Assembly: GCA_905479515.1 (NCBI GenBank)
Contig: CAJQMX010000074.1
Location: forward strand, 1-22,969
DNA from: an uncultured Parasphingopyxis sp.
GTDB lineage: Bacteria > Pseudomonadota > Alphaproteobacteria > Sphingomonadales > Sphingomonadaceae
Length of the DNA stretch: 22,969 nt
Direction of reading: 5' to 3'
Every line of letters begins with the position of its first letter. Positions within the stretch are counted from its first letter, which is position 1. This document shows positions 1,999 to 20,747 of the stretch, piece by piece. The translations under genes were made by a program, and so were the position numbers. Below the pieces are notes generated by a model. The model was not told the DNA's origin, did not search any database, and saw only the letters and a list, made by a program, of their open reading frames with translations.

Positions 1999-2385
1999 AT
2001 GGCAGTTAAGGTAAGCTCATTGAACGCACGGAGGGCACTTGAGACTCTCGGCGCGAACATCAAGACGGCGCGCTTGAAGCGGCGCATCTCCGTAAAGGGG
2101 TTCGCCGAGCGGGTCGGTGTGTCCGAAAGCACCATCACGCGCCTAGAGAAAGGCGACGACGGTGTCAGCATCGGCACGCTGGCGATGGCCTGCCTCGTCC
2201 TCGGCGAGATCGAGCGCATTTTCGACTTTCTTGATGCCGGGTCCGACGATACCGGGCTGCTTCTCGATCGGGAAGCGCTCCCCAAGCGGATCGACAAAAA
2301 ACGAAAGCCCGCATCGCCGCCATCCCGCAAAGGCCAATCAGCCCCCTTGTCCGATGCGGATGATGAAGAAGGGGTCGGTTTCTGA
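1999..2385 (+). CDS. hipB: HipB-like antitoxin, XRE-family HTH regulator
   Basis: The 128-aa product has a lambda-repressor-type HTH at about residues 14-70, with LGANIKTARLKRRIS, GFAERVGVSESTITRLEKG and the LAMACLVLGEIERIFDFL helix. A charged linker and tail follow (KKRKPASPPSRKG). HipB proteins bind operators in their own promoter and hold the kinase HipA inactive. I chose the ATG at 1999 because AGGAAAAGAG lies just upstream; an in-frame ATG at 1978 would add seven residues but has no Shine-Dalgarno. Its TGA shares one base with the ATG of the downstream toxin gene (TGATG at 2383-2387), which points to translational coupling. Confidence 0.85.
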   Translation: MAVKVSSLNARRALETLGANIKTARLKRRISVKGFAERVGVSESTITRLEKGDDGVSIGTLAMACLVLGEIERIFDFLDAGSDDTGLLLDREALPKRIDKKRKPASPPSRKGQSAPLSDADDEEGVGF

Positions 2386-3620: not shown

Positions 3621-3692
3621 GATCTGAGTAGTCGAGCTTGGGGTAAGGGTCGCTTTGTAGCTATCGTTCAGATGAGTAAAAGGAACAAAAAA

Positions 3693-5900: not shown

Positions 5901-7825
5901 CCAATCGTATCGGGCAGCCGGATACGGATGCCGACCGGGAGCTGCGCGAATGCCTCGATCAGCAACCGTTGACGAACTTCGTGATGGTGGCAGGAGCGGG
6001 TTCTGGGAAGACGACGTCTCTCGTGAAGGCGCTTGCTCACCTTTCTACGACCCGCGCAGCCGAATTGCGAAGACGAGGCCAACAGATCGCTTGCATAACT
6101 TATACGGATATTGCGGTTGGTGAAATATGGGGTGACGTGGGCAATGACAGCCTGTTCCACGTCTCGACAATTCACAGCTTTCTCTGGACGATTGTAAGTC
6201 CGTTTCAGCAAGATCTGAAGCTTTGGGTGGAAGGGCGTATTGAAGAAAAGATTGCCAAGGCACAGGAGCGCTTGGACAATCCGAGGACGCGCGCCAACAC
6301 TCGCGAAAACTTGGCTCGGGATATGGAACGCTATCAACGTCAGAGTCAGGCGCTCGCGGACGTAAGCCGGTTTAAGTACGGCACCGGCAGCGATTATGCC
6401 AATGGCGTATTGGGTCATGACGATATCCTGAAGATTGGCCCGGCATTGATCGAGGAACGGCCTCTACTGCGAACACTCATTGCCAATCGGTTTCCGTTCA
6501 TTTTCGTTGACGAGAGCCAGGATACTAATCCGATCTTCGTCGCTGCCCTAAGGCAGGTAGCTGAAACTGTGGGTGCGCGCTTTTGCTTGGGTTTCTTCGG
6601 AGATCCTATGCAGAAAATCTATACAACTGGTGCTGGACCAATTGAGTTGGCTTGTGGCTGGAACGAGATAACAAAGCCAGAAAATTTCCGGTGTCCTACA
6701 AGTGTCCTTACTTTGATTAACAAAATTCGTGCTGAAGACGATGGACTTCAGCAAACTCGCGGCCGAATGATTGAACGAAATGGGAATCTTGAAGCGGTCG
6801 CAGGCTCAGCTCGCCTGTTCATTCTTCCATCCGATGATCACAGAACCGAGCGTCTAGCGCAGGTGCGGCAATGGCTTGCGACGGCAAACGACGATCCGCT
6901 TTGGCAAAGTGACGATGTTGATGCCGATGTGCGGGTACTTGTACTTGTTCACCGCATGGCTGCAAAACGTCTCGGTTTCCCCAATCTTTACTCGGCACTC
7001 AATGATCAGGCACCAGCCAATCTGAAAGATGGGCTACTGGATGGTACCGCATGGGTTTTGAGGCCCTTCATGACGTTCATGCTCCCATTAGTCAGCGCTG
7101 CGGAAGAAAAAACGGATTTTGAGGTCATCTCCTTGTTGCGCAAGTACTGCCCGCTACTCGGCAAGGACCGTATTGCGGACCAGGACATCCCAGAGCTGGT
7201 CAATAGATTACGTCAAGACGTGCCGCGCTTAGTCGAAATGCTTCAGCCGGGAGGTGACGTCACCATCCGGCAGGTACTTGCATTCTTGAGTGAGCATAGT
7301 TTGTTAAACCTCGATGATCGGTTTGCTGCTTATCTCGAAGATGGGGAAGTTGGCATGGATGGCGAGGAAGCGAGCAAAGAAGAAGTATCGGTGAACGCAT
7401 TTCTCGATTGTGCAGCTTCAGAGCTCTGGGGCTATCGCCAATACATCGAAGATCAATCTCCGTTTGCCACGCAGCAGGGGATCAAGGGTGCGGAGTTCGA
7501 ACGTGTATTGGTAATCCTTGATGACGAAGAGGGTGACTACAACCTGTTTTCTTACGGAAAATATTTCGATATCACGCCACTTTCCGACACCGACAGCAAG
7601 CACCTACAAGATGGAACTGACTCTGTGTTGGGAAGAACGCGACGATTGTTTTATGTGTGTTGTTCACGTGCAGTGAACGATTTGGCAGTTGTGCTGTTCG
7701 TTCCCGATGTCGCTGCGGCCAAAGAGGCCATTGAGGCTAGAGAAATATTTCCAGCCGCTGAAATTTATGAACTTGCTGTATTGGCAGATCAAAGGGTCGC
7801 GGCTGAGATGAATGTCCGATGTTAA
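5897..7825 (+). CDS. gajB: GajB-like UvrD/PcrA-type superfamily 1 helicase
   Basis: The 642-aa product shows the SF1A helicase motifs in order. These are Walker A VAGAGSGKTT (31-40), motif Ia ACITYTDIAVGEI (about 65-77), motif II FVDESQDT (203-210), motif III LGFFGDPMQKIY (231-242), a motif-IV-like NFRCPTSVL, a motif-V-like QGIKGAEFERVLVI and motif VI RRLFYVCCSRA near the C-terminus. Its start overlaps the stop of the OLD nuclease gene by four bases (ATGA 5897-5900), so the two are co-translated. In Gabija the helicase-like GajB partners GajA and is stimulated by DNA termini. It is longer than the typical GajB (about 490 aa). Its stop overlaps the convergent GIY-YIG gene by four bases, leaving no intergenic space. 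Confidence 0.85.
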   Translation: MTNRIGQPDTDADRELRECLDQQPLTNFVMVAGAGSGKTTSLVKALAHLSTTRAAELRRRGQQIACITYTDIAVGEIWGDVGNDSLFHVSTIHSFLWTIVSPFQQDLKLWVEGRIEEKIAKAQERLDNPRTRANTRENLARDMERYQRQSQALADVSRFKYGTGSDYANGVLGHDDILKIGPALIEERPLLRTLIANRFPFIFVDESQDTNPIFVAALRQVAETVGARFCLGFFGDPMQKIYTTGAGPIELACGWNEITKPENFRCPTSVLTLINKIRAEDDGLQQTRGRMIERNGNLEAVAGSARLFILPSDDHRTERLAQVRQWLATANDDPLWQSDDVDADVRVLVLVHRMAAKRLGFPNLYSALNDQAPANLKDGLLDGTAWVLRPFMTFMLPLVSAAEEKTDFEVISLLRKYCPLLGKDRIADQDIPELVNRLRQDVPRLVEMLQPGGDVTIRQVLAFLSEHSLLNLDDRFAAYLEDGEVGMDGEEASKEEVSVNAFLDCAASELWGYRQYIEDQSPFATQQGIKGAEFERVLVILDDEEGDYNLFSYGKYFDITPLSDTDSKHLQDGTDSVLGRTRRLFYVCCSRAVNDLAVVLFVPDVAAAKEAIEAREIFPAAEIYELAVLADQRVAAEMNVRC

Positions 7826-8319
7826 CGGCAAGCACTTTGATGATGAGTCGCGGACCTGTTCTGCCTTGGCAGCGGCCTGGAAGTCTGAATGGGAAACAAA
7901 AAACAACCTTTCGCTGTCGGTGCAGCGTCCATGTCGGCGTTACTGAATTGGTCCATTTCTAGATCGGCCCATTCCCACAAACCGAGATACTCTGGAATGG
8001 CATCGCGATCATATCCGACAATTTGGAAGGCATCGGCGTTCTTTGCAACGAAGCCATCGCGGCCAGTACTTATGAGAATAGGCAGGATGTCGGCCGGTTT
8101 GATCGCAAACCACTCACCGCGCACATGGATCGCTTCGAAGTGTTGGTGTAGATGACGTTCGAGCCGAAAGGCGTCGGCAACTTCGATCCACCCAAGCAGT
8201 CGAAGATCGGAGAGGTTGCCTGTTTGTAGGTTACGCTTGCGCACAGAGATGTTCTTTGCGACCCCGATCTTGATTGGGGAGCATGCTTTTTCCTCTTGGC
8301 CAATGAAATATACGGGCAT
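7822..8319 (-). CDS. GIY-YIG (T5orf172/Mug113-type) nuclease-domain protein
   Basis: The 165-aa product begins MPVYFIGQ and carries the abbreviated GIY-YIG fold of the T5orf172/Mug113 group. Y4-F5-I6-G7 stands for GIY, K17-I18-G19 for the second strand, then come the R27/R29 region, the LERHLHQHF helix with Glu54, and GEWF at 69-71. This group is often found in phages and mobile elements. The C-terminal half (after about 85) is not recognised. The ATG at 8319 has a GGAG Shine-Dalgarno eight bases upstream. It lies 18 bp after the end of the Lit-like gene and is probably the last gene of the leftward operon. Nuclease activity is likely from the motifs but unproven. Confidence 0.75.
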   Translation of the reverse strand: MPVYFIGQEEKACSPIKIGVAKNISVRKRNLQTGNLSDLRLLGWIEVADAFRLERHLHQHFEAIHVRGEWFAIKPADILPILISTGRDGFVAKNADAFQIVGYDRDAIPEYLGLWEWADLEMDQFSNADMDAAPTAKGCFLFPIQTSRPLPRQNRSATHHQSACR

Positions 8320-8337: not shown

Positions 8338-9261
8338 TCAACGGATCCGATCGAGAAGCATTTCGACCATCTCTTTGTCCGAGCGCGCGACGATGTCGAG
8401 CGGCCGGTTTTCCTTCCGCATGAGAGCGATCAAGAGGCAGGCTGTGAAGGGCCAGAAAGATGAACCGGCCGGTAGTGTATACCCGCCAATCATCGCGGTT
8501 AGCCGTTCGGCGATCGGTGGGTATTGGCGATTGCCCCAATGCGCGTGACTTGGGGTCATTATATGGATAATCACCGCAGCGATCACTATACCCATTGCGC
8601 GCTTCTGCTGAACTAGGGCGAAGTCGTATTTGTGCTTCTTTGCATAGGCGGCAAGACCGCTCGTCATGAAGTCGCGGGCATACGTGTCGCAGGCGATTTC
8701 CTATTCTGGTAGCGTAGAGGGGGCACTGTTGTCGGCACAAAACATAACGTGCTGAAATTCATGCAGTAGCGCGAAGGCCAACGCGAGCGAGATGAGATCG
8801 AACGCCGCCATATGCTGGACGTCATCCAAGCTTTCACGATCAGCGGTCGGCTTAGGTACGTCCGCTGGCCAAGAGATGTCAGTTGTCTGCTGCGCCACAA
8901 TGAGCGACTGGGCAGAGCCGATGCGCTGCTTGAAATCAAATTCATACTGGCCAAGTTCAGCGTCGATGTTGAGGGCTTGGTCGAGGGGTATCCCGTTCGA
9001 AGTCGCAATAACCAACGCCGGCGCGTACACTTCGATGGCTCGCCATACGCTGAAGCCCAGCAGCCAGAAGAAATCTATCGTCTTCATATCGAATTGGATA
9101 CGCTTAGCGTCTGCGTTCATTGTGACGCCTTCGGCATTTGGCGCAACTTCGATAGTATGTCCGTATTTTGTCCAAAGACGGCTCATCTCATCGGCGCGCT
9201 CGGGGACAGCACCGCGCAAGAGGTAAAGGATGATCGTTCGATCAGATGATTGAGTTGTCAT
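8338..9261 (-). pseudogene. Lit-like (U49) zinc metallopeptidase interrupted by one in-frame TAG
   Basis: Read through the TAG at 8701-8703, the frame encodes 307 codons, close to the length of E. coli Lit (297 aa). A zincin motif HEFQH lies at 167-171 in a hydrophobic helix, and the expected downstream acidic cluster EIACD at 188-192 comes right after the amber codon 187, so metal ligands sit on both sides of the break. The second half (AYAKKHKYDF... AMGIVIAA... YPPIAERL) is fully open and protein-like. Lit cleaves EF-Tu after phage T4 infection; the same role here is inference. ATG 9261 has GAGGA upstream and overlaps the previous stop (ATGA). One base change (CAG or GAG to TAG) explains the break; a sequencing error or suppression is also possible. 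The first fragment alone lacks the second metal-binding motif. Confidence 0.7.
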
Positions 9262-10637
9262 GTTTTTTGTTCCTCGGTTCTCAAATGCGTTATTGAGGAC
9301 AAGACAGAATTTTCCCAAATAGTGCTACATTCAATATCGCCATCGCGCTCAAACCATTGTGTTGCGCCCGGGATAAGATCGAACGGAATTGGGTTTGTCG
9401 CTAGCGGATTGTGATACACTTCGAGTTCTTGGCACCATGCTTCGCCCCACGGCCAGAGCGATTCATACTCGGCACTGCCGACTGAAAGCTCGAAGTCGAT
9501 GGGCTCAAGTGCCCCAGGCGTTCGGTCAAAAAGGATGCCGCGCCGAACCATTTCCAATCCGTAGGGCCGCCATCCTGCGAGAAAGCCCATACGATTGAAC
9601 TTGGCCATCGTTCCGGCATTGCTGAAAATCACAGCTGAAAGATGTGTGAATTCGGGATTGCGAAACAGGCCAGCTGGGATGCTGTGTTCTCCCGTAAGAT
9701 TGCTGATAGGTGTATTAATGGCGCGGCGGCTGGATCCTTCCCCTTCAACATCGGCGCGCAAGCCGTAAAGATATGTTGGTAGTGCCTCACGGCTCCATAC
9801 CATCGAACCCGACTCGTGGAAGTCGGCGATTGCGAGGGCAAAGGCGTGACCCTTTACATGATCCAGTTCATGATAATTGCGCTGTAGCTTGCCGCGCAAG
9901 GTCTTTGCGAAGCGCTCCGCGGGCGCGCCGGTTAGGCGCTCGGTTCGGTCGTCGGGAGCATGCACCCATTCGCCAATGCCGCCTGATCGCGGAGTCGCTG
10001 AGTTTGCTGTCACCGCCTCGATCCAACAGCTGGCACCATCCTTTTCGATCCAGAAGTCCGGCGAAACATGATCCTGCCGCACCCCCAAGCCCTGCTCGCG
10101 GAAGCAGGCGAGCAGGTAAAGTTCGAAGAGCCTTGCTGAAAAATTGTTGGTTTGCAGATCGGTGACGAAATTTGCGTCGGGTTTGGGAAGCGCCAGATAG
10201 CATTCGCCGACCGCCATGAGGGCTGGCACATGACTGATCGTGCTGGTCAAAAGCCGAAACTCCGGCGAGATGCCGCGGGGGCCGACTTTCATCAGTGGCG
10301 CTCGTTTCCGCGCACCGGGCGGAACTGGTTCTGGAGGGTCGCCTCCACGCATGTTGACGCTGAGCCGGTCGAGCGCTGCTTCCGGACTGAATATTGGTCC
10401 GCTCTCGTCCACCAAAACCCAGCGGTAATCGGTACGGCGGCGCAGAACCAATGTCGAAAACGTTCTTTGTTCAGGGTCGAGGAGAATGCAACCGCATGCG
10501 GTGCCGTACCCGACCTGGTACGCGCTGAAGATGTGCGACGGCTCGAAGTTTGGTCCACGCTCGAGCGAGAGAGCATGTAACTCGAATTGCCGCTGGCAAA
10601 TGGGTTTGATCAGCCGTTGTTCATCGCCGGTAGCCAT
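9258..10637 (-). CDS. Protein with PD-(D/E)xK-like motifs, larger of two paralogues
   Basis: The 459-aa product is not a family I can name. In the middle, LFELYL (E172), VSPDF (D194) and CWIEAVTAN (E207) follow the order and spacing of a PD-(D/E)xK nuclease core, but the usual Lys is replaced in the E-A-V version. The C-terminal part has FTHLSAVIFSNAG and YHNPLATNPIPFD. The smaller neighbour (10692-11630) shares the E..., PD, WIEA, S-x-VI-x-S and HNPLAxxPxP elements in the same order, so the two look like divergent paralogues. I chose ATG 10637 because GAGG lies five bases upstream; a GTG at 10643 is also in frame. It lies 54 bp after the paralogue, and its stop overlaps the Lit-like start by ATGA. 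Confidence 0.6.
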   Translation of the reverse strand: MATGDEQRLIKPICQRQFELHALSLERGPNFEPSHIFSAYQVGYGTACGCILLDPEQRTFSTLVLRRRTDYRWVLVDESGPIFSPEAALDRLSVNMRGGDPPEPVPPGARKRAPLMKVGPRGISPEFRLLTSTISHVPALMAVGECYLALPKPDANFVTDLQTNNFSARLFELYLLACFREQGLGVRQDHVSPDFWIEKDGASCWIEAVTANSATPRSGGIGEWVHAPDDRTERLTGAPAERFAKTLRGKLQRNYHELDHVKGHAFALAIADFHESGSMVWSREALPTYLYGLRADVEGEGSSRRAINTPISNLTGEHSIPAGLFRNPEFTHLSAVIFSNAGTMAKFNRMGFLAGWRPYGLEMVRRGILFDRTPGALEPIDFELSVGSAEYESLWPWGEAWCQELEVYHNPLATNPIPFDLIPGATQWFERDGDIECSTIWENSVLSSITHLRTEEQKT

Positions 10638-10691
10638 AGCCACCTCGATGGATAGCGGCGACCCGACGTCGACTATGTGGCCGCAAGCATG

Positions 10692-11630
10692 TCATTGGGC
10701 TTCCGTGGTCCGTGTTGGAACCAGAATGTCGTTTGTTTCCCATCCGTCGTCGCTACGTACGGTGACGAATTCCCGATCCCAAACGCCCCAGTTCATCGGC
10801 AATGGGACCTCAGCAAGGGGATTGTGGACATATGTGAGTGGCCGGGTCCGGCGCGACAGATTTCCAAGGCCGACACGCGACCAGATCACGCCCGAGATGT
10901 TGGCAAAACGCTCGTCGAGAAATGCCGTGCGCGGGATCGGATTGCCTTCGCGCTGGATGACGGGCGCCGCATGAAATCCTTCATCGAGAACATTTCCTGT
11001 CTCTCGGTCGACGGTGATGTACGCATCTCCAACCGGAAACAGAGTTGACATGATGAGCGGCAAAGGTTGTTCAGCGACATAGACGCCGAACCGGCTGGCG
11101 CTGATGGCGATAATCCGTGTGTCGTCGGGTGTAACCACACCTTGCTCGATATAATGTGCAATTCTTTGCGCTTTGGTCCAAAATGCCCCCGATGTCCGCA
11201 ACTGCGCTTGACGGATCGGCGCGGCAATTAGCCCGCCTCCTTCGTTCATGGGAATGGGCCGTACAATCTGGTCGGGACCAGGCGCACCTTCTTCGGGTGC
11301 TATCGCCTCGATCCAGATACGGTGATCATCTTCGAGAACGCATAAATCCGGTTGGCCACCGTCGCGCTGACGGTCGACCACGGGTAGCAATGTTCGCCCA
11401 GCGTCGAGCAGCGTACAGCCTAGATACATTTCCCAGAAACGACCGTCGACATCGCGCGCGAAACCCTGAGGGAAGTCCGGATCGGCATAGGGTTCATAGA
11501 TAGCCCACATCGATTCAATTAGATCGTGTAACTCCTGCTCGATCGGAGATTGCGCGACTTTCAGGTTTTGAAATCCGCGGTCGAGATTTGGGCCTTCAAC
11601 GTCGAAAAGTTTACTCATGTTACGGTTCAT
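10692..11630 (-). CDS. Protein with PD-(D/E)xK-like motifs, smaller of two paralogues
   Basis: The 312-aa product shows FWEMYL (E67), QPDLCVLED (D95) and WIEAIAP (E108), spaced like a PD-(D/E)xK core with Ile where Lys is usual. Further on come ISGVIWSRVG and VHNPLAEVPLP, matching the larger neighbour (ISxVIxS, HNPLAxxPxP). No family name is offered. ATG 11630 lies three bases after the stop of the upstream gene (ATGATGAATG) with no clear Shine-Dalgarno, so translation is probably coupled. An internal ATG four codons on is possible. Its role is presumably shared with the larger paralogue: DNA cleavage, or a catalytically changed DNA-binding relative. Confidence 0.6.
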   Translation of the reverse strand: MNRNMSKLFDVEGPNLDRGFQNLKVAQSPIEQELHDLIESMWAIYEPYADPDFPQGFARDVDGRFWEMYLGCTLLDAGRTLLPVVDRQRDGGQPDLCVLEDDHRIWIEAIAPEEGAPGPDQIVRPIPMNEGGGLIAAPIRQAQLRTSGAFWTKAQRIAHYIEQGVVTPDDTRIIAISASRFGVYVAEQPLPLIMSTLFPVGDAYITVDRETGNVLDEGFHAAPVIQREGNPIPRTAFLDERFANISGVIWSRVGLGNLSRRTRPLTYVHNPLAEVPLPMNWGVWDREFVTVRSDDGWETNDILVPTRTTEAQ

Positions 11631-11633
11631 TCA

Positions 11634-12188
11634 TCATGCGCGGCGCAACATCCGTTCGACACTCACGCGATGGTAGCCGTGCGTGTGCACTTGCCGCCGG
11701 AGCTGGTTCATGTCGTTCACACCGAATGCCACCGCGGCTTTCAGAGGGCTGGCGAAGGTCGCGTAAAACGACCAACGGACGCCGGTAGGCAATGGCGGGT
11801 TCTGTCGGCGGTCGGTAATGACAACGTCGCTCGGATCGCTAGTATTGCGGAAGGCATGGAAGGTGAACCAGTCAGGCCGTCGATATCGCGTGGCCTTGAT
11901 GAACGGCACGGATAGCACTTTCACATCGCTCTGATCGAGGATCCAATCGCGCTGCTCTAGGATCTGCCGCACCATATGCCCGACCATCTGCTTCACGCGA
12001 TCGGCCAGGACCTCCTCCCTGAACTCCTCCAAAAGCTGCTCCGCGATGCCCTCGACTGCCGGCTTGCTCAACTCCGACGCAGTTTCCAGGCGGGCAACGT
12101 TCTCGGGCTGTGTGAGAAAGGCCCAGATGCGTTGGCCAATGTCCGAGGCATAAAGAGATGCGAATTTATCAGGGTTATAGGCAAACAT
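11634..12188 (-). CDS. Hypothetical protein, first gene of the leftward operon
   Basis: The 184-aa product begins MFAYNPDKFASLYASDIG. The first 90 residues are helical and charged (RLETASELSKPAVEGIAEQLLEEF and so on). The second half contains DWFTFHAFRNTSDPSDVVITDRR and resembles no domain I know. No signal peptide, membrane helix or metal motif is visible. ATG 12188 is favoured by an excellent AAAGGAGGG six bases upstream; a longer frame to 12239 would run through the predicted promoter. Its start is 16 nt from the predicted transcription start. As the leading gene it could be a sensor or specificity component; that is a guess. Confidence 0.7.
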   Translation of the reverse strand: MFAYNPDKFASLYASDIGQRIWAFLTQPENVARLETASELSKPAVEGIAEQLLEEFREEVLADRVKQMVGHMVRQILEQRDWILDQSDVKVLSVPFIKATRYRRPDWFTFHAFRNTSDPSDVVITDRRQNPPLPTGVRWSFYATFASPLKAAVAFGVNDMNQLRRQVHTHGYHRVSVERMLRRA

Positions 12189-12200
12189 GACCGGCCCTCC

Positions 12201-12239
12201 TTTACCGGGCAAATATGACCGGTTATACATCTGTGTCAA
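12201..12239. promoter_or_regulatory. Overlapping divergent sigma70-like promoters with an internal inverted repeat
   Basis: Plus strand: TTTACC (12201-12206), 17-bp spacer, TATACA (12224-12229), directed at the nuclease/TIR/HEPN operon. Minus strand: TTGACA (12239-12234), 17-bp spacer, ATATTT (12216-12211), directed at the leftward operon. The two promoters occupy the same 39 bp, so only one polymerase can bind at a time. ACCGG (12204-12208) and CCGGT (12219-12223) form an inverted repeat inside this region and could be an operator. Identified by eye. Confidence 0.55.
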
Positions 12240-12283: not shown

Positions 12284-12919
12284 ATGGAATTCGAGGATCT
12301 TGTGACGGCTTTGAAACCGCCGCCGAACCGTGTTGGAAAATCGGATGACCTGCACGAGCATCATCTTTACGAAGGGGCCGTCATGGTCGCCTTTACTATG
12401 CATCTGCTTCGTGCAGCGGGTGCGCGGCACGTTCGCATCCATCCCGATGGTGAACATGGGAAACAGTTCGATTTCACGGGCTGGCTCGGGCGCCGGGAAT
12501 TCGCAAAGGTTTCGAGCCTCGGCAGCACGGCCTATGGCGGAGTCTATCAAAACCCGGTCGGCGAAACGATCACCGCCCACCCCAAATCAGGCCTTGGCGA
12601 TGTCGTTTCGGAGGTATGGGGTCTTCGGATAGTAGCCGAGTGCAAGGGCGGGATCATCAACACGCGGCACTTGGGTCAAGTGTCGCGCCTGTACCGGGGA
12701 CTTTGCGAAACCGTCGGGCTTTTGATGGCAACGCCATCGCCGGGGCGTCAGATCGCCGTGGTTCCATCGACCGATAGCACCTTGCGGCTGGCTGAGCGGC
12801 TCGCGCCGCGTTGCGCATTAGCCGGTATCGAGATTGCGCTTGTCGATAGCCATGGCAATGTCATGTACGTGAAGCCAGAGAGGACTATAGAAAAGGTGAC
12901 GGAAGGGAATAATGGATGA
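12284..12919 (+). CDS. PD-(D/E)xK nuclease-like protein, first gene of the TIR/HEPN operon
   Basis: The 211-aa product carries a readable PD-(D/E)xK signature. An N-terminal helix holds E30 (HHLYEGAVMVAF), and SGLGDVVSEVWGLRIVAECKGG provides D106 and the E119-C-K121 dyad, with the GD...ECK spacing of restriction-endonuclease-like folds. An alternating strand/helix region follows (GRQIAVVPSTDS, GIEIALVDSHGN). No DNA-recognition domain is visible. ATG 12284 is preceded by AGGGAGG five bases upstream; a TTG one codon earlier is less likely. The stop overlaps the TIR gene start by ATGA, so these genes form one translational unit. It may be an effector nuclease or a specificity component; this is inference. 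Confidence 0.7.
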   Translation: MEFEDLVTALKPPPNRVGKSDDLHEHHLYEGAVMVAFTMHLLRAAGARHVRIHPDGEHGKQFDFTGWLGRREFAKVSSLGSTAYGGVYQNPVGETITAHPKSGLGDVVSEVWGLRIVAECKGGIINTRHLGQVSRLYRGLCETVGLLMATPSPGRQIAVVPSTDSTLRLAERLAPRCALAGIEIALVDSHGNVMYVKPERTIEKVTEGNNG

Positions 12920-14028
12920 GGAGAGTACTGACGGTTGGGCTGAACTATACTGGCGATGCTATTGACGGTGTGGAAATCGACAACCTGGGGCTATGCCGCC
13001 CCGAGGTCGATCGAGAGAGGGCCGCATATCCGCTCTATGAGTATGACACGATCATCATCAACCCGGAGAGCTATACGCATTTCCTATTCGGAAGTGCGGG
13101 CGAGTTCTCCGACGAAGATAATGAATTGGGTAAGTTGAAGCGGCAGAAGGACAGCTATGACATCGACTCCGCTTTCGACGCCGAGGATCGGCAAAAGGAG
13201 ATGGAGGCCGCGATTGCGGATGGCGCAACTATCGTTTGGTGCCTGTCCGAACCGAAGCGGATGAACTTCTTCGGTTATCGCGAAACGCATTTGGGATACG
13301 TGGCCCCGAAAGTGGCAAAATTCGTGAAACGCTCGGACCTTCTCGTGAAGAAGGGACGCAGGATGGGTTTAGTTGATCCGGATAGTCCATTTACGCGCTA
13401 TTTTGAGGTGATATCGCAGACGGGCGGCTGGACATTGTGCCTGTCTGACCCCGGCGAGAACTACGTTTCGATCGCCGCGACGCCCGAAGGTTACAGCTTG
13501 GGCGGCTACATATCGTTTGGGGCAACGACTGGCTGGCTGCTCACTGCTCCAACATCGCAAGAGGCTGAGAACCAGCTCGTCCGCGATAGCCTGTTGCTGG
13601 AGAAAGCAAACCCGGCGCATGAGAAGTATCATGGCATATTCCTCAGCCACACTGGTGTCGACAAACCGTTCGTTCGCCAATTGCGCAAGGATCTCCTTGC
13701 CCATGGGGTGGAGCACGTTTGGCTGGACGAGGCCGAAATCGACATCGGGGACTCGCTGATCGCCAAAATCGAAGAGGGCATAAAGCTCAGCCGCTTCATC
13801 GCCGTGGTCTTGTCGAAAAAATCGATCGGCGCGCCTTGGGTCAAGAAGGAATTGGACGTGGCGATGAACCGAGAGATATCCAGCGGGGAGGTCGTCGTCC
13901 TGCCGCTGCTCTATGAAGAGTGCGAGCTTCCAGAGTTCCTGAAGGGGAAGCTCTACGCCGACTTCTCGAAGCCCGAAGACTATGAAACTGTCCTCGGTAA
14001 ACTCCTGCGTCGGCTCCGGATCGCCTGA
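12916..14028 (+). CDS. TIR-domain protein with a novel-looking N-terminal domain
   Basis: The C-terminal 130 residues of this 370-aa product are a TIR domain. It has GIFLSHTGVDKPFVRQL (240-256), VWLDEAEIDIGDSL (268-281), FIAVVLSKKSIGAPWVKKEL (294-313) and VVVLPLLYEECELPEFL. Glu312 in WVKKEL matches the catalytic Glu of TIR NAD+ hydrolases. The first 235 residues are not recognised; EYDTIIINPESY and ATIVWCLSEP look like strands of a Rossmann-like fold, and a later part (GWTLCLSDPGEN, GYSLGGYISFG) is beta-rich. TIR effectors in defence systems cleave NAD+ or make signal molecules after phage sensing. It overlaps the upstream gene by four bases (ATGA) and the downstream gene by one (TGATG), so stoichiometric co-expression is likely. 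Confidence 0.85.
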   Translation: MRRVLTVGLNYTGDAIDGVEIDNLGLCRPEVDRERAAYPLYEYDTIIINPESYTHFLFGSAGEFSDEDNELGKLKRQKDSYDIDSAFDAEDRQKEMEAAIADGATIVWCLSEPKRMNFFGYRETHLGYVAPKVAKFVKRSDLLVKKGRRMGLVDPDSPFTRYFEVISQTGGWTLCLSDPGENYVSIAATPEGYSLGGYISFGATTGWLLTAPTSQEAENQLVRDSLLLEKANPAHEKYHGIFLSHTGVDKPFVRQLRKDLLAHGVEHVWLDEAEIDIGDSLIAKIEEGIKLSRFIAVVLSKKSIGAPWVKKELDVAMNREISSGEVVVLPLLYEECELPEFLKGKLYADFSKPEDYETVLGKLLRRLRIA

Positions 14029-15365
14029 TGAGTAATGCTGGGACGGGTCCGAGCAATGCGATGATCTCCGCGATGTCGGATCTGTGGCAGCTACGCCCGC
14101 CGGGGCCGGATAATATCCTCGCGCATCCAGCGTTCGAGCGGCTACGCGAAGCCTGTCGTGACGGCTACCCGAATGCAGGCAAGAAGGGACCGGCCTTCGC
14201 ATTGTCGACCGCTTTGCGGTCTCTGGGTCTTCCCTGCGGCCTGCAAAAGCAGACGGCTCATCTGGCGTTGCCCGTTGAGGCCGCGGCGATGGGCCTGGAC
14301 GCGGCGATGCAGGCGACCCATGCCAAACGCGTCCATCTCCTGCCGCTCGATCTGGCTGCCGACCTTCCGTCAGTAGCTTTTGGCCCGGCGAAAGTGGGCC
14401 GGCTCACGGCGGATGAACTGCGGTCCTTGGTCGATGAAACCAGGATGAAGCGGACTCATCCGCGACAGGACTTCGACGCCGAGCGCTTCTCCGAGTTTCA
14501 CTGGCTGATTGTCGAGGAGGCCGTTGCGCTCGAACAGGAGCCGGAGGCCCGTGCCATCCCGGTGCTGTTCATGGACTTGAGCCGGGACCTAGGTCAGATA
14601 GAGCCGCACAAAGGCCGGTTTCCTGCCGCTGTTGAGGACGCGCTGTTCTTCCTGCTGTTGGCACCATGGGAAAGCTGGTCGACGATGGCGGAAGTCGATT
14701 GGCGCGGTTTTCGAGTCCCGTGGATCTACACCGTCGACAACGACATCTTCGTCCGTCTCAATTCGCCGCCGTCCCCAGATACACTGAGTTGGGAACCTCG
14801 AATCTACGACGACGGCTATGGCAGGACCATCGAGGAGGAGCGGCCCGTCGGTTTGCCCATGGAAGACAGCGTCGCAACGGAGTTACCGGTCTGGGATCAG
14901 AGCCGCTGGGCGATCGTCGAACAGGCGAAGCAATCGGTTCTGTTCGAAACGCCAATCACTCACTTCCTGGTCCGCGCGTTCTTGGTGGACGGCATCGACG
15001 AATTCTTAGCGCATATCACGACAATCGAAGCGGCGCTGGGCCTGCGTGCCGATTACCAAAAGGGCTTTCGGGTTGCGCCGGACCGCCACAAGCGGTTGAA
15101 CGCATCAAGAAAAATGCGTGGTCGCGTTGCTGGGCTGCTCGGAGATCGCTGTTATGCCGACCAGTATGAGCAGCTTTTCGATGTGAGAAGCGCGTTTCTC
15201 CACGGACGCACGATGTCGGCTATTTCAACCCAACAACGGGTGATGGCGCGTTCTCTAGCTCGTCAGGTTGTCGAGGCGCTGTTGTTCGCGACGCAGGCCG
15301 GGCCGATCGTTTCGCGAGAGCACTTCCTTGATGACCTGCTCGATAAAGGGGTGACCAAAATCTAG
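14028..15365 (+). CDS. HEPN-domain protein (R-x4-H) coupled to a TIR gene
   Basis: The C-terminal section of this 445-aa product reads as an all-helical HEPN domain, similar to the ApeA-type group. It has FLAHITTIEAALGL, then RLNASRKMRGRVAGLLGD, then YEQLFDVRSAFLHGR with R387 and H392 forming R-x4-H, the ribonuclease signature of HEPN proteins. The N-terminal 300 residues are not recognised; they contain a tryptophan-rich patch (WESWSTMAEVDWRGFRVPW, about 212-230). HEPN RNases usually cleave RNA or tRNA and cause abortive infection. The ATG shares one base with the TIR stop. An internal ATG at 14061 is possible, but the overlap favours 14028. It is the last gene of the rightward operon and ends in TAG. 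Confidence 0.75.
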   Translation: MSNAGTGPSNAMISAMSDLWQLRPPGPDNILAHPAFERLREACRDGYPNAGKKGPAFALSTALRSLGLPCGLQKQTAHLALPVEAAAMGLDAAMQATHAKRVHLLPLDLAADLPSVAFGPAKVGRLTADELRSLVDETRMKRTHPRQDFDAERFSEFHWLIVEEAVALEQEPEARAIPVLFMDLSRDLGQIEPHKGRFPAAVEDALFFLLLAPWESWSTMAEVDWRGFRVPWIYTVDNDIFVRLNSPPSPDTLSWEPRIYDDGYGRTIEEERPVGLPMEDSVATELPVWDQSRWAIVEQAKQSVLFETPITHFLVRAFLVDGIDEFLAHITTIEAALGLRADYQKGFRVAPDRHKRLNASRKMRGRVAGLLGDRCYADQYEQLFDVRSAFLHGRTMSAISTQQRVMARSLARQVVEALLFATQAGPIVSREHFLDDLLDKGVTKI

Positions 15366-15486: not shown

Positions 15487-15669
15487 TTACTTTTTTGGTT
15501 TCTGCGATGTCGTTGGGTAGACGTCACAACCAAGGATGTCATCATTTTCTGCTGGGTTGTAGCCTGGCCTCGGTGCCTTTTTCCAGATTGTTGCCTCATC
15601 GAGTTTGATCATTGGCCGGGTCAACGAAATAAGGGGTTTGCGCTTGCAATCACAAAACAAACAAGGCAT
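15487..15669 (-). CDS. Possible small protein with a CxxCxC motif
   Basis: A 60-codon frame starts at ATG 15669 and reads MPCLFCDCKRKPLISL, then KLDEATIWKKAPRPGYNP, ending in a lysine-rich QKPKK. The CLFCDC cluster could bind metal. The ATG lies inside the palindrome at 15667-15690, so this gene, if real, would be controlled from the same site as the divergent MerR-like gene. There is no convincing Shine-Dalgarno, and a longer version could start at 15720 inside the neighbouring gene. It may be spurious. Confidence 0.3.
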   Translation of the reverse strand: MPCLFCDCKRKPLISLTRPMIKLDEATIWKKAPRPGYNPAENDDILGCDVYPTTSQKPKK

Positions 15670-15690
15670 CTTGTTGTAAACAACAAGATG
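15667..15690. promoter_or_regulatory. 24-bp perfect palindrome, likely operator of the MerR-like regulator
   Basis: CATCTTGTTGT (15667-15677) is the exact complement of ACAACAAGATG (15680-15690) around AA. It ends 11 bp before the GTG start of the MerR-like gene. Regulators of this type bind dyads in their own promoters, so autoregulation is the simplest reading. It could also form an RNA hairpin just before the start. Confidence 0.6.
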
Positions 15691-15701: not shown

Positions 15702-16181
15702 GTGACACTTCTTTATACACCTGGTCAACTTAGGAGTGCGGTTTCAATCAAACCGGAAACCTATCGCCATTGGAAGAAAACCCTGGATCCGCTGCAGCGA
15801 GCACGGGGTCACAGTCCGTGTTTCACATCGGGCGATTTGGTCGCCATCTCGGTCATCAGATGCCTAACTGTGGACACAGCAATAAGAGTGGGAGCGCTTG
15901 GGCCGATTGCAGAGTCACTATTTGAACTTTGCAACGCGTCACCTTGGCCCGTTCTTGAGCGCACTAAAGTCATCGTCGATGTTGCCGGGGCTGAATTGCA
16001 ACTTGTGTCGGAGCTTGCGCTGACGACCAGCGAGAAGCCGCTGGTCAGCATTCCACTTGGCCCGCTTATTTTTCGCTTACGAGACCAACTCCTTGCGGCG
16101 ACCGTAGAGGAAGACCAGCCATCGCTCCGCTTTCCACCCGTGTCATTGGCTCAGGCCGCTAATCAGGGAGCAAGGTCATGA
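15702..16181 (+). CDS. MerR-like HTH regulator, first gene of the methyltransferase/PIN operon
   Basis: The 159-aa product starts MTLLYTPGQLRSAVSIKPETYRHWKK, an HTH like that of the MerR family (YTPGQL...ETYRHWK). A second segment follows (HSPCFTSGDLVAISVIRCL) that fits the remaining helix and strand of the winged HTH. The C-terminal half lacks a recognisable ligand domain. The start is GTG at 15702, with only a weak Shine-Dalgarno. The stop overlaps the methyltransferase start by ATGA (16178-16181). A 24-bp palindrome directly upstream suggests autorepression, which would restrain the downstream methyltransferase and RNase. In restriction-modification systems a controller protein plays an analogous timing role; here that is inference. 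Confidence 0.7.
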   Translation: MTLLYTPGQLRSAVSIKPETYRHWKKTLDPLQRARGHSPCFTSGDLVAISVIRCLTVDTAIRVGALGPIAESLFELCNASPWPVLERTKVIVDVAGAELQLVSELALTTSEKPLVSIPLGPLIFRLRDQLLAATVEEDQPSLRFPPVSLAQAANQGARS

Positions 16182-18667
16182 ATGCTATCGAGACTATCGC
16201 TCAAGCTGTGCATGATACGGGTTATCGTCCCGAGGCTGTAGTTCGTGACTATGCCTTTGCGGATGTGTTGGTTGAAGGCAATACTACTCGATCCGTGCCT
16301 CTTGTAGCGTTTACTCGAACACCGCCATCTTATCGTTCCGCGGCGCTTGCGGTCGTCGAAAGCAATGGGCGGCAAGGTATCGACCTAGTGCGAGAGCATC
16401 GCGCTCTCGGTGCCCCACTTCTATTCGTTATTGAGAACGATGACGTCGTAGTTTGGCAGGTGCGGAGCGAGGATCCTCCCCGAGCCGTCGAGAGAATTAA
16501 AATCGACGAACTGACATCGCTCTTCGAACGGAAGCGGGAAACTTGGCATCCTGACGCCATTCATCGCGCAAAGGCAGTTGGATCCTCGTTAGGAAACTAC
16601 CAACTTGACTTTGTGGACATTGGCCTCATTCCAGCAATCGAAGGCGAAATCCATATCAAGTTGGATCGACTCCTCGTTGAAACTCTCAATCTTGTGCGTG
16701 ATTCACCAATTGGTGGTAAGGTTGATCCGCGAACTCTTTTTCGAGTTATATTTCGGCTTTTGGCAGCGAAGGTTCTGCAAGATCGCCGACATCCATTTTC
16801 GGAAGAGTGGGATTCCGAAGACCTCTCCACTGTGCTTGCCAAGATCGAGGATTATTACAATCTTGGGGAAATCAAAGGGCAGTCAGGTCGAGCCCTTCCG
16901 ATGCTTTTCAGCGCCGCTTGGCAGTATTTGCAAGCCGGTATCAGTTTCTCCAATATTTCTTCGGATGACTTGGCATTCGTGTATGAGAACACACTGGTCA
17001 CGCCTGAGACCCGAAAGTTGTTCGGCACACACAGTACGCCACGTCAGGTGGCAGAGTATGTCGTTCAAAGGCTCGAATTGCATCTCTACGATTCCGAAGA
17101 CCTTAAGATTTATGAGCCATTTGCAGGTGCGGGCGTATTTCTTGTTTCAGCTCTGCGGCACCTAAGAGACTTACTTCCTGTTGATTGGTCAGATCAGCGG
17201 CGCCACGACTTTTTGATTGATCATATTTCTGGCGACGAAATTGATCCATTTGCCTGTGAAGTAGCGACATTGTCGCTTATCCTCGCCGATTATCCCAATC
17301 ATAACGGCTGGCTCATCAATGAAACTGATCTTCTGCTTGATGGAGCCTTGGACAAAAGACTCGCTGATCACAATGTAATTGTATGTAATCCACCGTTTGA
17401 AGCCTTCAGCGCCGAGGAGAAAGCTCAGTATCCGGGAATGAGCCAAAAACCGACAAAAGCTTCTGCGGTATTGAACGCTGTCTTAGACGCCCGACCGCTC
17501 GCTCTCGGTTTTGTACTGCCGCGATCTTTCATTTTGGAAAAACAATTTTCTGAGCATCGCAAGCGTATCGAGGCGTTGTACGGCTCCGTAGAGATATTAG
17601 AGATGCCCGACCGAATTTTCGGAGCGTCGAGTGTAGAGTCAGCTGCGCTGATCGCACGAGATCTGCGTCCTGAAAGCGAACGTGAAATCTCCATTCGCTC
17701 ATCAGAGGTAGCTGATCGTAGTCGCGCAGCGTTTCTGAAAACTGGTGCGATCACTGTCAAACGTGATTTAACGCGCCAAGTTGAAGATGAGCCTTCCGGA
17801 CATCTCTGGATTCCGCCACTTCATGATCTATGGACTCATCTAAAAGACAGACCGACTTTAAACACCTTATTCAGGCCGCGATGGGGGTTGCGGTGGAACT
17901 ACGATCAAATGCTCGCTGCGAGCGACCACGAACAATCAGGATATCGAAGAGGTTATCTTAGTGCCCGCCGTTTTCAGCAGTTTTTCGGCACTGAGCAAAC
18001 CTGGCTGGACTTCAATCTCGAAAACCTCCGTGAAGGCTTTGATCAAGACTGGTCAAAGCCCAAAATTATTATGAATGCGGCGCGCCTTAGCCGTGGCCCA
18101 TGGCGTGCTGGTGCTATCGTCGACGGCGACGGTTGTCTATATTCCCAACAGTTCTTTGGTTTATGGCCACAGTATGAGGCTAAATTAGATGATCTCTTTG
18201 CTTATTCTGCAGTTCTAAACAGTCCCGTTGCAAATGCTTTTCTAGCAATTCGCTCACCGCAAAATCGGTTTCGGTCGTCGGTTGTGGGGGAAATGCCGAT
18301 TCCTGCAAGGCTGCCATCGCAGTTGGGGCCGCTAGTACAGGAATATGTGCACCTTTTGCGTGACGCTCCGCTCTTTAGCGACGCTGAAGAAAGAGTTGCT
18401 CAAATGCTCGTATCCATCGATGCAGCCGTGCTTTGCGCTTATGATCTCCCTCTAAGGCTGGAACGGCAGCTCTTGGAATATTTTAAGGATGCCGAACGCC
18501 CAGTTCCGCATCATTGGCAACATTGGGATACCCTGCACCATGTGCCAGGGCTGAGTTTGTCAGAAACAGTATCAGGGCAGTTCAATGCAACCGGTGATTG
18601 GGTAAAATCAGTATTCCAACCTCTTCCCGAGGACGAAATTTCACTACTCCGCGATTATGTGGCGTAG
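16178..18667 (+). CDS. N6-adenine DNA methyltransferase, large gamma-type
   Basis: The 829-aa product has AdoMet motif I PFAGAGVF at about 314-321 and the catalytic motif IV NPPF at 404-407. A GDEIDPFACEVATLSL segment between them supplies the acidic AdoMet-binding residues. This order (I then IV, then a long C-terminal target-recognition region) is that of gamma-class N6-adenine enzymes, in the size range of type I HsdM-like or type IIG proteins. The first 130 residues (SAALAVVESNGRQGIDLV, PLLFVIENDDVVVWQV) look like a nuclease-fold domain, but I see no intact catalytic triad. No HsdR or HsdS partner is nearby. It starts by ATGA overlap with the MerR-like gene and ends five bases before the PIN gene. 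It may protect or mark host DNA while the PIN protein acts as toxin. Confidence 0.85.
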   Translation: MNAIETIAQAVHDTGYRPEAVVRDYAFADVLVEGNTTRSVPLVAFTRTPPSYRSAALAVVESNGRQGIDLVREHRALGAPLLFVIENDDVVVWQVRSEDPPRAVERIKIDELTSLFERKRETWHPDAIHRAKAVGSSLGNYQLDFVDIGLIPAIEGEIHIKLDRLLVETLNLVRDSPIGGKVDPRTLFRVIFRLLAAKVLQDRRHPFSEEWDSEDLSTVLAKIEDYYNLGEIKGQSGRALPMLFSAAWQYLQAGISFSNISSDDLAFVYENTLVTPETRKLFGTHSTPRQVAEYVVQRLELHLYDSEDLKIYEPFAGAGVFLVSALRHLRDLLPVDWSDQRRHDFLIDHISGDEIDPFACEVATLSLILADYPNHNGWLINETDLLLDGALDKRLADHNVIVCNPPFEAFSAEEKAQYPGMSQKPTKASAVLNAVLDARPLALGFVLPRSFILEKQFSEHRKRIEALYGSVEILEMPDRIFGASSVESAALIARDLRPESEREISIRSSEVADRSRAAFLKTGAITVKRDLTRQVEDEPSGHLWIPPLHDLWTHLKDRPTLNTLFRPRWGLRWNYDQMLAASDHEQSGYRRGYLSARRFQQFFGTEQTWLDFNLENLREGFDQDWSKPKIIMNAARLSRGPWRAGAIVDGDGCLYSQQFFGLWPQYEAKLDDLFAYSAVLNSPVANAFLAIRSPQNRFRSSVVGEMPIPARLPSQLGPLVQEYVHLLRDAPLFSDAEERVAQMLVSIDAAVLCAYDLPLRLERQLLEYFKDAERPVPHHWQHWDTLHHVPGLSLSETVSGQFNATGDWVKSVFQPLPEDEISLLRDYVA

Positions 18668-18672
18668 TCAGA

Positions 18673-19176
18673 ATGGACGCCTATCTTCTCGATACGACCG
18701 CGTTGTCCATCTACCTTGATCCCACACATCCCCACCACCACGAGAAGAGCCAGTCTCTTCTTGCGCTCCCGACAGAAAGCCCTCGATTTGTATCGGCGAT
18801 CGCTTTGGCGGAGCTTGGTTTTGGCACAAAGCTTTCGGAGAGACTAGGTAGAGGTAATCTGCCGGCACTTGAGGCCATAATCACCAGAGCACGGAGCTAT
18901 GCAATAATTGATGTTACGCATCACACGGCTGCGGTCTATGCCGATATTAAGGCATCTGTCGCGCAAAAGTATCTCGCCAAAATACTTCGAAAAGATCGGC
19001 CGAAATACGTGGAGGAATGGATAGATAAAGCGACTGGGCAGAAATTGGCGATCGACGAAAACGATCTTTGGATGTGTGCACAAGCTAAGGAGCGCGATCT
19101 CATTTTCGTGACAGCGGATAAGCGGATGCAGCGCATTTCATATGCTGACCCTGCCGTGCGAATTTTAGTGGTATGA
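18673..19176 (+). CDS. PIN-domain ribonuclease (VapC-like), third gene of the methyltransferase operon
   Basis: The 167-aa product contains the PIN acidic residues: D7 in AYLLDTTALSIYLD, E47 in AIALAELGFGT, D131 in DENDLWMCAQA and D149 in FVTADKRM. VapC-type PIN proteins cleave tRNA or rRNA, but free toxins of this type normally have a small antitoxin gene next to them. Here none is seen; instead the gene follows the methyltransferase after five bases. ATG 18673 was chosen because it starts immediately before the conserved first strand. Its length is a little above a standard VapC (about 130 aa), owing to an insertion between E47 and D131. It probably acts as an effector under control of the MerR-like protein or the methyltransferase. 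Confidence 0.8.
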   Translation: MDAYLLDTTALSIYLDPTHPHHHEKSQSLLALPTESPRFVSAIALAELGFGTKLSERLGRGNLPALEAIITRARSYAIIDVTHHTAAVYADIKASVAQKYLAKILRKDRPKYVEEWIDKATGQKLAIDENDLWMCAQAKERDLIFVTADKRMQRISYADPAVRILVV

Positions 19177-19245: not shown

Positions 19246-20568
19246 CTATGCCGTTGGCCTCGATTCAATAAGCATTTGCTCAATCGCGCTCTGCCTTGAT
19301 TGCCGATCTAAGGTGTAGGTGTTGCGCCTGAACTCCGCGCCTTCCAGAAGGGCCTTCACATAACCCGCGACCGTATCCGCAGCCATGATCAGCGTGGAGT
19401 CGAGCGTATGGACATATTTGCTGGTGACCGACCCTTTCGCGTGGCCGATGAGCGCAGCGATCGTAATTTCGGTGAAACCAAGATCGTTGGCCATGCTGGC
19501 GAAGCTATGACGCAGCACGTGAGGCGTCACATCCCAGAGGGGCGTGTCCTTGAAGAGCTTCTTCCAGCTTTGGGGGAAATTGCCGACTGCATTGTCGATG
19601 TCCTGGCCGGGAAAAACATAGGTTCCTGTTCGGTGCGGGCGTTCCTTCTCCAGATATTCCACGACCGGCAATCCGACGGGACGAACTGTGGCACCTTCCT
19701 TGCTGTCGGCCAAACGCAAGCAGCTTCCTTCGAGATCGACAGCGCTCCATTTGAGGTTGACGATTTCACCGCGCCGACAGCCTGTCAGCGCAATAAGCCT
19801 GAGGATGTCAGCGTGTATCCGGAGTTGGTTGCTTCGGCATCCCTGCCGAAGAATGTCGCCAAGCGTCCGATACTCAGATTCGCTGAGCCGCCGGTCCCGA
19901 ACCTTGTACTTTGGCTTACGAAGTCCGTGCGTTGGGTTGTGTTCGATAATGCCGGCCTCGACGGCATAGGAGAAAACGCCGCCGAGAAGCCCCATCGTTC
20001 GGATCGCAGTGCCCGCGCCGCCGCGGACGATCGCCTTGCCGCGCAGCTTGTTGGTCTTGACGATTACGCGCGTTTTCCCTGCGATGATGTCCTTCATCAG
20101 ATTGTTCATGTCCGGCTTGGTGATGTCTCGCACGCGCCGGGTCCCGAGAAGGGGAACGATGTGCCGCCGGAGACGGCCCACATCGGTCGCAATAGTTGTT
20201 TCTTTTTTTGGGCGGCCGCCTTTGCCGAGAATGAGTCCCGCTTCCATATCCGCGATGTACTGCTCGCAAAGTTGCTTGATGGTCAGCGCTCTGCGCTCTT
20301 CTTCACGTTCTTCCGCAGGATCACCGCCATGTGCTGCCCGCCCGAGTAGGGCCTTCGCCTCGCGCCGCGCCGTTTCAGGCGTCCACAGGCCATGGAGACC
20401 AATAGTATAGCGGCGGGATCGTCCACGCGACCGGTACTGGACGATGTAGCTGCGCTTGCCAGAAGGATAGACACGCAGGCCGAAGCCAGGGAATTCATCA
20501 TCCCAGACAACGTGGCCTTTGCTCTGCGGCGCGACCGCTTCCACAAACCGTTTGGTGAGTTTCGCCAT
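19246..20568 (-). CDS. int: Tyrosine recombinase integrase of the element
   Basis: The 440-aa product has a DUF4102-like arm-binding N-terminus (KRFVEAVAPQSKGHVVWDDEFPGFGLRVYPSGKRSYIVQYR), a SAM-like core-binding domain (about 95-215) and the catalytic domain. The catalytic residues are R266 in LTGCRRGEI, K290 in ADSKEG, H350-x-x-R353 in HVLRHSF, H376 in LIGHAKG and the nucleophile Y385 in SKYVH. All are present. ATG 20568 begins MAKLTKRF, the usual start of this family; upstream in-frame codons are not conserved-looking. The gene lies 180 bp inside the tRNA-Arg fragment, with its start toward the attachment site, and converges with the PIN gene across 69 bp. Confidence 0.93.
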   Translation of the reverse strand: MAKLTKRFVEAVAPQSKGHVVWDDEFPGFGLRVYPSGKRSYIVQYRSRGRSRRYTIGLHGLWTPETARREAKALLGRAAHGGDPAEEREEERRALTIKQLCEQYIADMEAGLILGKGGRPKKETTIATDVGRLRRHIVPLLGTRRVRDITKPDMNNLMKDIIAGKTRVIVKTNKLRGKAIVRGGAGTAIRTMGLLGGVFSYAVEAGIIEHNPTHGLRKPKYKVRDRRLSESEYRTLGDILRQGCRSNQLRIHADILRLIALTGCRRGEIVNLKWSAVDLEGSCLRLADSKEGATVRPVGLPVVEYLEKERPHRTGTYVFPGQDIDNAVGNFPQSWKKLFKDTPLWDVTPHVLRHSFASMANDLGFTEITIAALIGHAKGSVTSKYVHTLDSTLIMAADTVAGYVKALLEGAEFRRNTYTLDRQSRQSAIEQMLIESRPTA

Positions 20569-20747
20569 GCTCCTGTTCCCTGCCGAGCCCTGATTTCGCG
20601 TAAGCACCACGCAAGCACGCGGACGGAAACCAAGGCGTATTCTCGGATAGAGGTTTCGGAGAGGCGATCAGAAAAGTCTAGTGATTACAAACTGATATCG
20701 TGCTCTGGCGTACCCTATCGTGCACTTCGGATAGGTCCTTAAACCAG
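20569..20747. other. Attachment-site arm region between integrase and tRNA fragment
   Basis: No gene is seen. The imperfect direct repeat GTAAGCACCAC / GCAAGCACGCG (about 20600-20621) and the small inverted repeat CCTATC/GATAGG (20714-20719 and 20730-20735) could be arm-type or accessory sites for the recombinase. The integrase promoter is probably here. Confidence 0.4.

Follow-up and report, generated by a model that had tools for sequence, protein, structure and literature searches.

A conserved but separable nuclease-TIR-HEPN operon, predicted as an abortive-infection cassette, in an alphaproteobacterial defence island

The window analysed here is a stretch of 22,969 nucleotides from an uncultured Parasphingopyxis sp. 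(contig CAJQMX010000074.1) and represents a defence island of the alphaproteobacterial type. At its centre lie three adjoining genes, referred to below as the trio.

12284-12919, plus strand: nuc, 211 residues from ATG, PD-(D/E)xK-like protein (D106, E119, K121); its stop overlaps the TIR start
12916-14028, plus strand: tir, 370 residues; TIR domain at residues 241-363 with W308-x3-E312; residues 1-235 without a recognised domain
14028-15365, plus strand: hepn, 445 residues; HEPN-like domain at the C terminus (R387-x4-H392); no domain recognised in residues 1-300

The genes are joined by overlapping codons. The nuclease stop and the TIR start share ATGA at 12916-12919, and the TIR stop and the HEPN start share TGATG at 14026-14030. 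Frames and junctions are as described in an earlier sequence-only reading of this DNA, and the motifs named there (GD...ECK, a catalytic glutamate, and R-x4-H) were all found, kept in 118-120 of the best 120 listed homologues. The nuclease contains D106-x12-E119-C-K121, that is, the D...ExK motif of PD-(D/E)xK nucleases, and nuclease activity is predicted for it. D106, E119, and K121 are each kept in 120/120 of the best listed homologues, and a partial relative of 32% identity (L106; L numbers denote loci) also has the D and the ECK. In the TIR protein, W308 and E312 are each kept in 120/120 of the best listed homologues. E312 aligns with the W-x3-E of AbTIR and BtTIR and thus corresponds to the catalytic glutamate of TIR NADases; the protein has the TIR fold and family assignment as well, and NAD+ cleavage is predicted. 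The HEPN motif is kept at R387 in 118/120 and at H392 in 119/120 of the best listed homologues, and as R-x4-H in 22 of the 23 rows of a divergent HEPN alignment. The protein is predicted to be an RNase, as it carries the motif R-x4-6-H, which the excerpts available from the 2013 HEPN survey give as the active-site motif of the HEPN RNase superfamily (PMC3710099).

The three-gene order is conserved. A HEPN-led survey, consisting of a pattern-based scan of genome contigs, yielded 60 loci, 21 of which are trio rows. Seventeen of these are open across all three genes and comprise 12 distinct loci, because L018, L019, L020, L022, and L043 equal L017 over 13,308 bp. Among the others, contig ends truncate L003 and L028 (L028 is 99.9% identical to L017 over 4,751 bp); L021, identical to L017 over 7,877 bp, has only TIR and HEPN within its contig; and the HEPN frame of L027 is broken. 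Together with the window and L095, this gives 14 distinct intact trios, and the families named for them number at least eight. A one-base overlap of TIR stop and HEPN start is present in 14/14. The nuclease/TIR junction overlaps in 10/14 (by four bases in seven and by one base in three), and a gap of 58-62 bases is present in four (L008, L011, L030, L037). The distances between the proteins are correlated in Mantel tests, with r 0.61 for nuclease and TIR (14 rows), 0.81 for nuclease and HEPN, and 0.85 for TIR and HEPN (19 rows each), and 0/5000 permutations were as high in any of the three. At the level of protein distances, this shows that the genes were inherited together, not that they function together. 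The conserved gene order is more than chance, because it is kept in different surroundings. As to the repeated locus, the 13,308 bp round the trio are 100% identical in L017, L018, L019, L020, L022, and L043, whose records are titled Bradyrhizobiaceae, Bradyrhizobium, Afipia, and Sphingorhabdus; the stretch is either a very recent transfer or cross-contamination.

The HEPN gene is also found without the full trio. Nuclease and HEPN occur without TIR in 4/60 rows (L002, L005, L031, L033), and a nuclease fragment accompanies HEPN in one more (L006). TIR and HEPN occur without an intact nuclease in 5/60 rows (L001, L023, L025, L026, L044); the L026 contig begins inside TIR, leaving any nuclease out of view, and the TIR frame of L044 is broken. 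In 29/60 rows neither gene is present in the HEPN operon. Some of these are fragments: L052, L055, L058, L059, and L060 match HEPN partially, L053 is broken, L049 begins 421 bases before HEPN with the upstream gene unseen, and L034 has a nuclease on the opposite strand. Relics of lost genes are visible in two loci, with the first TIR codons fused to the end of L013 and a nuclease tail kept in L009. A further candidate TIR relic, the residues RIA at the nuclease end in nuclease-HEPN loci, was dropped, as a similar nuclease tail is present in trio locus L003. In a HEPN tree of 51 rows, the distribution of partner labels requires 20 changes, compared with a mean of 31.2 after shuffling, with L001 labelled as a trio though its nuclease is a remnant. 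The nuclease-HEPN loci L002, L005, and L033 are nested among trio loci in a supported set of nine rows, and L031 and L069 branch outside it. Because of this nesting, TIR was probably lost in L002, L005, and L033, as judged from the tree.

Other partners adjoin the HEPN gene elsewhere. A STAND NTPase gene overlaps or touches it in L029 and L032 (nSTAND3, E 3.2e-7 in L029). Two small proteins, c25 and c21, are its partners in L035, L038, L039, and L042, with c21 occurring without c25 in L056 and c25 together with p201 (a small protein encoded beside the trio, see below) in L071 and L103. They are encoded directly before the HEPN gene at L035:2268-3580 and L042:4617-5983 and have no Pfam match; c21 has a GNACRHG stretch, and c25 has R-N-x3-H in L042 and L071, with Y replacing H in L035. 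A PIN-like protein lies beside HEPN in L051 (PIN, E 0.079), and PIN_12 lies upstream in L047. On Klebsiella (L066) and Serratia (L067) plasmids, HEPN is without a close partner.

Searches were also led by the other two genes. Hits to the TIR N-terminal domain came from 1/385 genomes of the class of G004 (G numbers denote genomes), from 4/397 of the family of G004 (two full-length, one weak, and one partial, the last belonging to the genome with the decayed locus L044), and from 7/391 of the family of G007 (six full-length and one fragment). Among Gamma- and Betaproteobacteria, TIR homologues with 67-84% identity are present in Dyella, Frateuria, and Comamonas. Nuclease and HEPN adjoin the full-length domain in 8/8 sampled genomes, which represent three lineages: G004, G453, and six genomes sharing an identical 3,702-base stretch contained in L017. 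In plasmids, the domain is present in 12/72,556 records. Eleven of them are from Agrobacterium and have HEPN directly after TIR and no nuclease match; the twelfth, a Pseudomonas veronii plasmid, has neither HEPN nor nuclease within the 10.7 kb read. In the Ti plasmid copy (L065, NC_002377), the TIR-HEPN pair is clustered with PIN, ABC-three-component, and type I restriction genes.

In the family of G004, 2/397 genomes have the nuclease, each within a trio, and in the family of G009, 10/394 have it. The latter include the trios L097 and L098 (apparently L024 and L004 again), the nuclease-HEPN locus L099 (apparently L069), and L103, where a nuclease fragment adjoins p201-c25-HEPN. The other six of the ten, with identities of 32-54% (three partial or broken), are without this HEPN in the 9-14 kb read. 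Among plasmids, 9/72,556 records contain the nuclease; four of them have HEPN adjacent or at most 1.3 kb away (one HEPN partial), and the remaining records have no such nearby HEPN. On the Mesorhizobium terrae plasmid (L064:5468-6612), the nuclease gene overlaps by one base a gene for a HEPN protein of the RiboL-PSP type (E 5.7e-15). This is a second, different HEPN family, so that either the nuclease-HEPN pairing would have arisen more than once or the HEPN was replaced. Two further nuclease relatives were noted. On the IMG/VR contig L062 (6919-8594), a 53% identical nuclease lies downstream of a protein which by eye is TIR-like or of the deoxyribosyltransferase fold, and at L100:6075-7070 the frame of a nuclease relative runs into an extra C-terminal part which by eye is ADP-ribosyltransferase-like; neither has a Pfam match.

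Library searches recognised the TIR domain of the trio. In Pfam, TIR_2 spans residues 241-363 (E 1.1e-27), and in PADLOC the best match is PDC-S66 (E 1.1e-24), followed by ThsB; the PADLOC and NCBIfam matches are restricted to the TIR domain. Pfam, PADLOC, and NCBIfam gave nothing below E 0.1 for the nuclease, the HEPN protein, or TIR residues 1-235, which agrees with the earlier description of the two N-terminal parts (235 and 300 residues) as unrecognised. Pfam searches with 21 and 23 members of the HEPN family gave stray single-member matches only. Among PDB sequences, profile searches brought up no credible match to the nuclease, the N-terminal part of TIR, or the HEPN family, and hhalign gave no support for a relation of the nuclease to two annotated restriction endonucleases and the PD-T7-5-like protein, or of HEPN to the small partner in L071. 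No relative of the HEPN protein was found in phage records, no related DNA in Escherichia coli genomes, and, in a scan of IMG/VR with the nuclease and the TIR N-terminal part, no relative of the latter and one distant relative of the nuclease. Structural comparison places AbTIR and BtTIR, which are producers of cyclic ADP-ribose isomers, among the solved TIR domains nearest to the TIR protein, and AbiV and HEPN-MNT toxins among the ten best structural rows for the predicted HEPN C-terminal fold; a Foldseek search of the HEPN model against PDB gave zero matches at E <= 0.001. The AlphaFold inputs were alignments 71-93% (HEPN) and 68-89% (TIR) identical to the window proteins, and the models have a mean predicted local distance difference test score of 55.8 and 50.6, respectively, both being poor apart from the TIR domain and a portion of the HEPN domain. 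Because the alignments are too alike and the scores low, no statement is made on the N-terminal folds.

Each part of the trio is of an already known kind, and the combination itself is named neither in the libraries searched, where PADLOC, Pfam, and NCBIfam recognise only the TIR domain, nor in the open-licence literature searched (subscription papers and preprints lay outside this scope); the earlier reading likewise knew of no described system with this trio. The TIR protein shares with Thoeris ThsB, AbTIR/BtTIR, and Retron-TIR a TIR domain with a catalytic-type glutamate, but its 235-residue N-terminal part matches none of them. The trio also lacks a ThsA, reverse transcriptase, or Argonaute partner, and no ThsA model is among the matches listed for ten window proteins, the trio included. 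The PDC-S66 match covers residues 227-333 only; we take PDC to stand for phage defence candidate and PDC-S66 thus to be no tested system. The HEPN protein resembles ApeA in having an N-terminal part of about 300 residues and a C-terminal HEPN domain with R-x4-H; in the survey excerpts, ApeA-NTD1 has about 300 residues and is fused to HEPN (PMC3710099). A UniRef entry labels the homologue P0090 "Apea-like HEPN". Pfam's ApeA N-terminal, Apea, or other HEPN domains gave no match at E <= 1 in the 21 and 23 members, P0090 included. Moreover, ApeA is a single-gene defence, whereas the HEPN gene of the trio has TIR and nuclease genes in its operon. In the modelled C-terminal fold, AbiV and HEPN-MNT toxins are similar, but they belong to a different sequence family, and AbiV, as excerpted, typically lacks the H of the motif (PMC3710099). 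The same excerpts describe DUF4145-type HEPN proteins fused to a restriction endonuclease, or to TIR and ATPase domains (PMC3710099); there, one fused protein of another HEPN family is involved, whereas here three separate genes adjoin.

The preferred reading, to which a probability of about 0.5 is given, takes the trio as an operon that is conserved yet separable and predicts it to be a cassette for abortive infection, with a HEPN sensor/RNase, a TIR NADase, and a DNA nuclease. It is based on the observed order and overlaps, the correlated divergence, the active-site residues, the absence or decay of TIR and nuclease beside HEPN, and the defence-gene setting. In such a cassette, the N-terminal part of the HEPN protein (about 300 residues) would sense infection, which would release the protein to cleave RNA. 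The TIR protein would deplete NAD+, the small nuclease would cut DNA, and the cell would stop before phage maturation. TIR and nuclease would be optional effectors, the stop/start overlaps keeping translation coupled, and HEPN would be the constant core, given that its gene occurs beside many different partners as well as by itself. For many abortive-infection systems, a single effector has been described. If the reading is true, one operon attacks NAD+, RNA, and DNA together, with parts that can be dropped or exchanged. The natural series of HEPN alone, nuclease-HEPN, TIR-HEPN, and full trio could then tell why effectors stack and which part senses phage, and the strongly conserved TIR residues 1-235 and HEPN residues 1-300 are two stretches without an assigned domain. 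A broader form of this view is more tentative: the HEPN family, with an undescribed N-terminal sensor, would be the hub and constant core of a whole set of defence operons, into which evolution plugs different killing enzymes (TIR, DNA nuclease, STAND NTPase, small HEPN-like pairs, and PIN) via stop/start overlaps.

Several points qualify this reading. The 8/8 trio result for full-length TIR is weak as independent evidence, because it represents three lineages, most already in through HEPN; the families searched were picked round genomes found in that way (G004 is that of L010 and G007 that of L017), and only G453 and perhaps G1505 are new relative to the HEPN-led survey. The main survey itself is HEPN-led, which inflates the apparent centrality of HEPN. 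A serious, if unlikely, alternative is that three independent single-gene defences share one promoter, the overlaps being ordinary operon packing in a defence island. It is favoured by the 29/60 rows with neither nuclease nor TIR in the HEPN operon, by HEPN alone on the Klebsiella and Serratia plasmids and TIR alone on that of Pseudomonas veronii, by the nuclease occurring without this HEPN in 6/10 matching genomes of the family of G009, and by the 58-62-base gap in 4/14 trios. With HEPN often lacking the other two genes, distant nuclease relatives lacking this HEPN, and TIR once alone, the data do not support the sensor/effector complex suggested in the sequence-only reading as one obligate unit. 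The possibility raised there that the genes occur mostly apart holds for HEPN and the distant nuclease relatives, not for TIR. Against independent genes stand an order fixed in 14 distinct loci, which come from eight or more families and overlap every time at the TIR/HEPN junction, the correlated protein distances, full-length TIR within the trio in all eight sampled genomes, and a nuclease adjoining two different HEPN families.

Two other explanations are less probable. It would be rather improbable that TIR and HEPN form a Thoeris-like pair, in which TIR, on sensing infection, would produce a cyclic ADP-ribose signal to switch on HEPN via the N-terminal part of the latter. The nearness of AbTIR and BtTIR is in line with this, as are the TIR/HEPN overlap, the most constant junction (14/14), and the TIR-HEPN pairs without an intact nuclease in L001, L023, L025, and the Ti plasmid copy L065. 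However, the same HEPN family occurs without TIR in L002, L005, L031, L033, and L069, and alone, and no ligand-binding domain was recognised. An addiction module of the toxin-antitoxin kind, carried by mobile elements and with one small protein that restrains a HEPN toxin, seems very improbable: HEPN-MNT-kind toxins are among the fold matches, relatives are plasmid-borne, and one identical 13.3-kb copy is present in records of several genera, but HEPN lacks a constant partner gene of the sort expected for an antitoxin, HEPN is alone on two plasmid types, and both candidate partners bear enzyme-type motifs.

The surroundings of the trio in the window are as follows.

388-1368, minus strand: ArdC-like gene
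1978-3620: HipB/HipA, directly upstream of the Gabija pair
3672-5900 and 5897-7825: Gabija gajA and gajB, complete (PADLOC)
7822-8319, minus strand: MUG113/T5orf172 protein, presumably GIY-YIG
8701-9318, minus strand: Peptidase_U49-like open reading frame (E 5e-4, below Pfam's cut-off)
9258-10643, minus strand: PD-T7-1-like gene, strong PADLOC model match
10692-11630, minus strand: PD-T7-5-like gene, weak PADLOC model match
11634-12188, minus strand: p201, no family known, 184 residues from a conserved start at 12188; the open reading frame reaches 12239
12204-12239, minus strand: p201 promoter-like site, TTGACA, 16 nucleotides, CATATT, with an overlapping ACCGG...CCGGT inverted repeat
16178-18667: N6-methylase-like large protein, 829 residues, preceded by a small open reading frame of 159 residues
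18598-19176: PIN protein, overlapping the methylase-like gene
19246-20610, minus strand: tyrosine integrase

Gabija, defined by gajA plus gajB, is represented by the neighbours at 3672-7825 only, and the trio itself is not Gabija. The minus-strand genes between 7822 and 12188, from the MUG113/T5orf172 gene to p201, are conserved. The methylase-like and PIN genes (16178-19176) are possibly another defence unit. The closest relative is Erythrobacter sp. QSSC1-22B (L001), with gajA, gajB, TIR, and HEPN 93-97% identical. At L001:2846-6001, hipA-gajA-gajB leads directly into a nuclease remnant (about 47 codons), after which come open TIR and HEPN genes; the genes that separate gajB from the nuclease in the window are missing there.

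According to the tblastn table from which the p201 counts were taken, nine distinct loci other than the window have divergent PD-T7-1-like, PD-T7-5-like, and p201 genes adjoining the nuclease (L005, L007, L010, L012, L017, L024, L027, L033, L095). p201 is not required for the trio, as it is absent from the trio loci L008, L011, L030, and L037. In 15/15 aligned p201-nuclease gaps, both boxes (TTGACA and CATATT) are conserved and read towards p201. The inverted repeat surrounds the second box, with the ACCGG arm in 14/15 and the CCGGT arm in 11/15 (ACGGT in four), and the gap is variable outside these elements. A consensus scan located this promoter-like site and gave no excess of sites over shuffled sequence; its weight therefore rests on conservation. 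The site with its inverted repeat is a possible operator of the two divergent operons.

Downstream of the trio and right before the 159-residue open reading frame, a 10-pair inverted repeat (CATCTTGTTG/CAACAAGATG) is present at 15667-15690; a scan for similar sites found no more than in shuffled sequence. Rfam and tRNA scans were empty. In other loci, the region downstream of the trio contains AbiEi/AbiEii and then a GajA-like gene in the one case (L010:7360-10995) and a HerA-like gene in the other (L017:10314-12350), and in these two loci it is probably a swapping hot spot.

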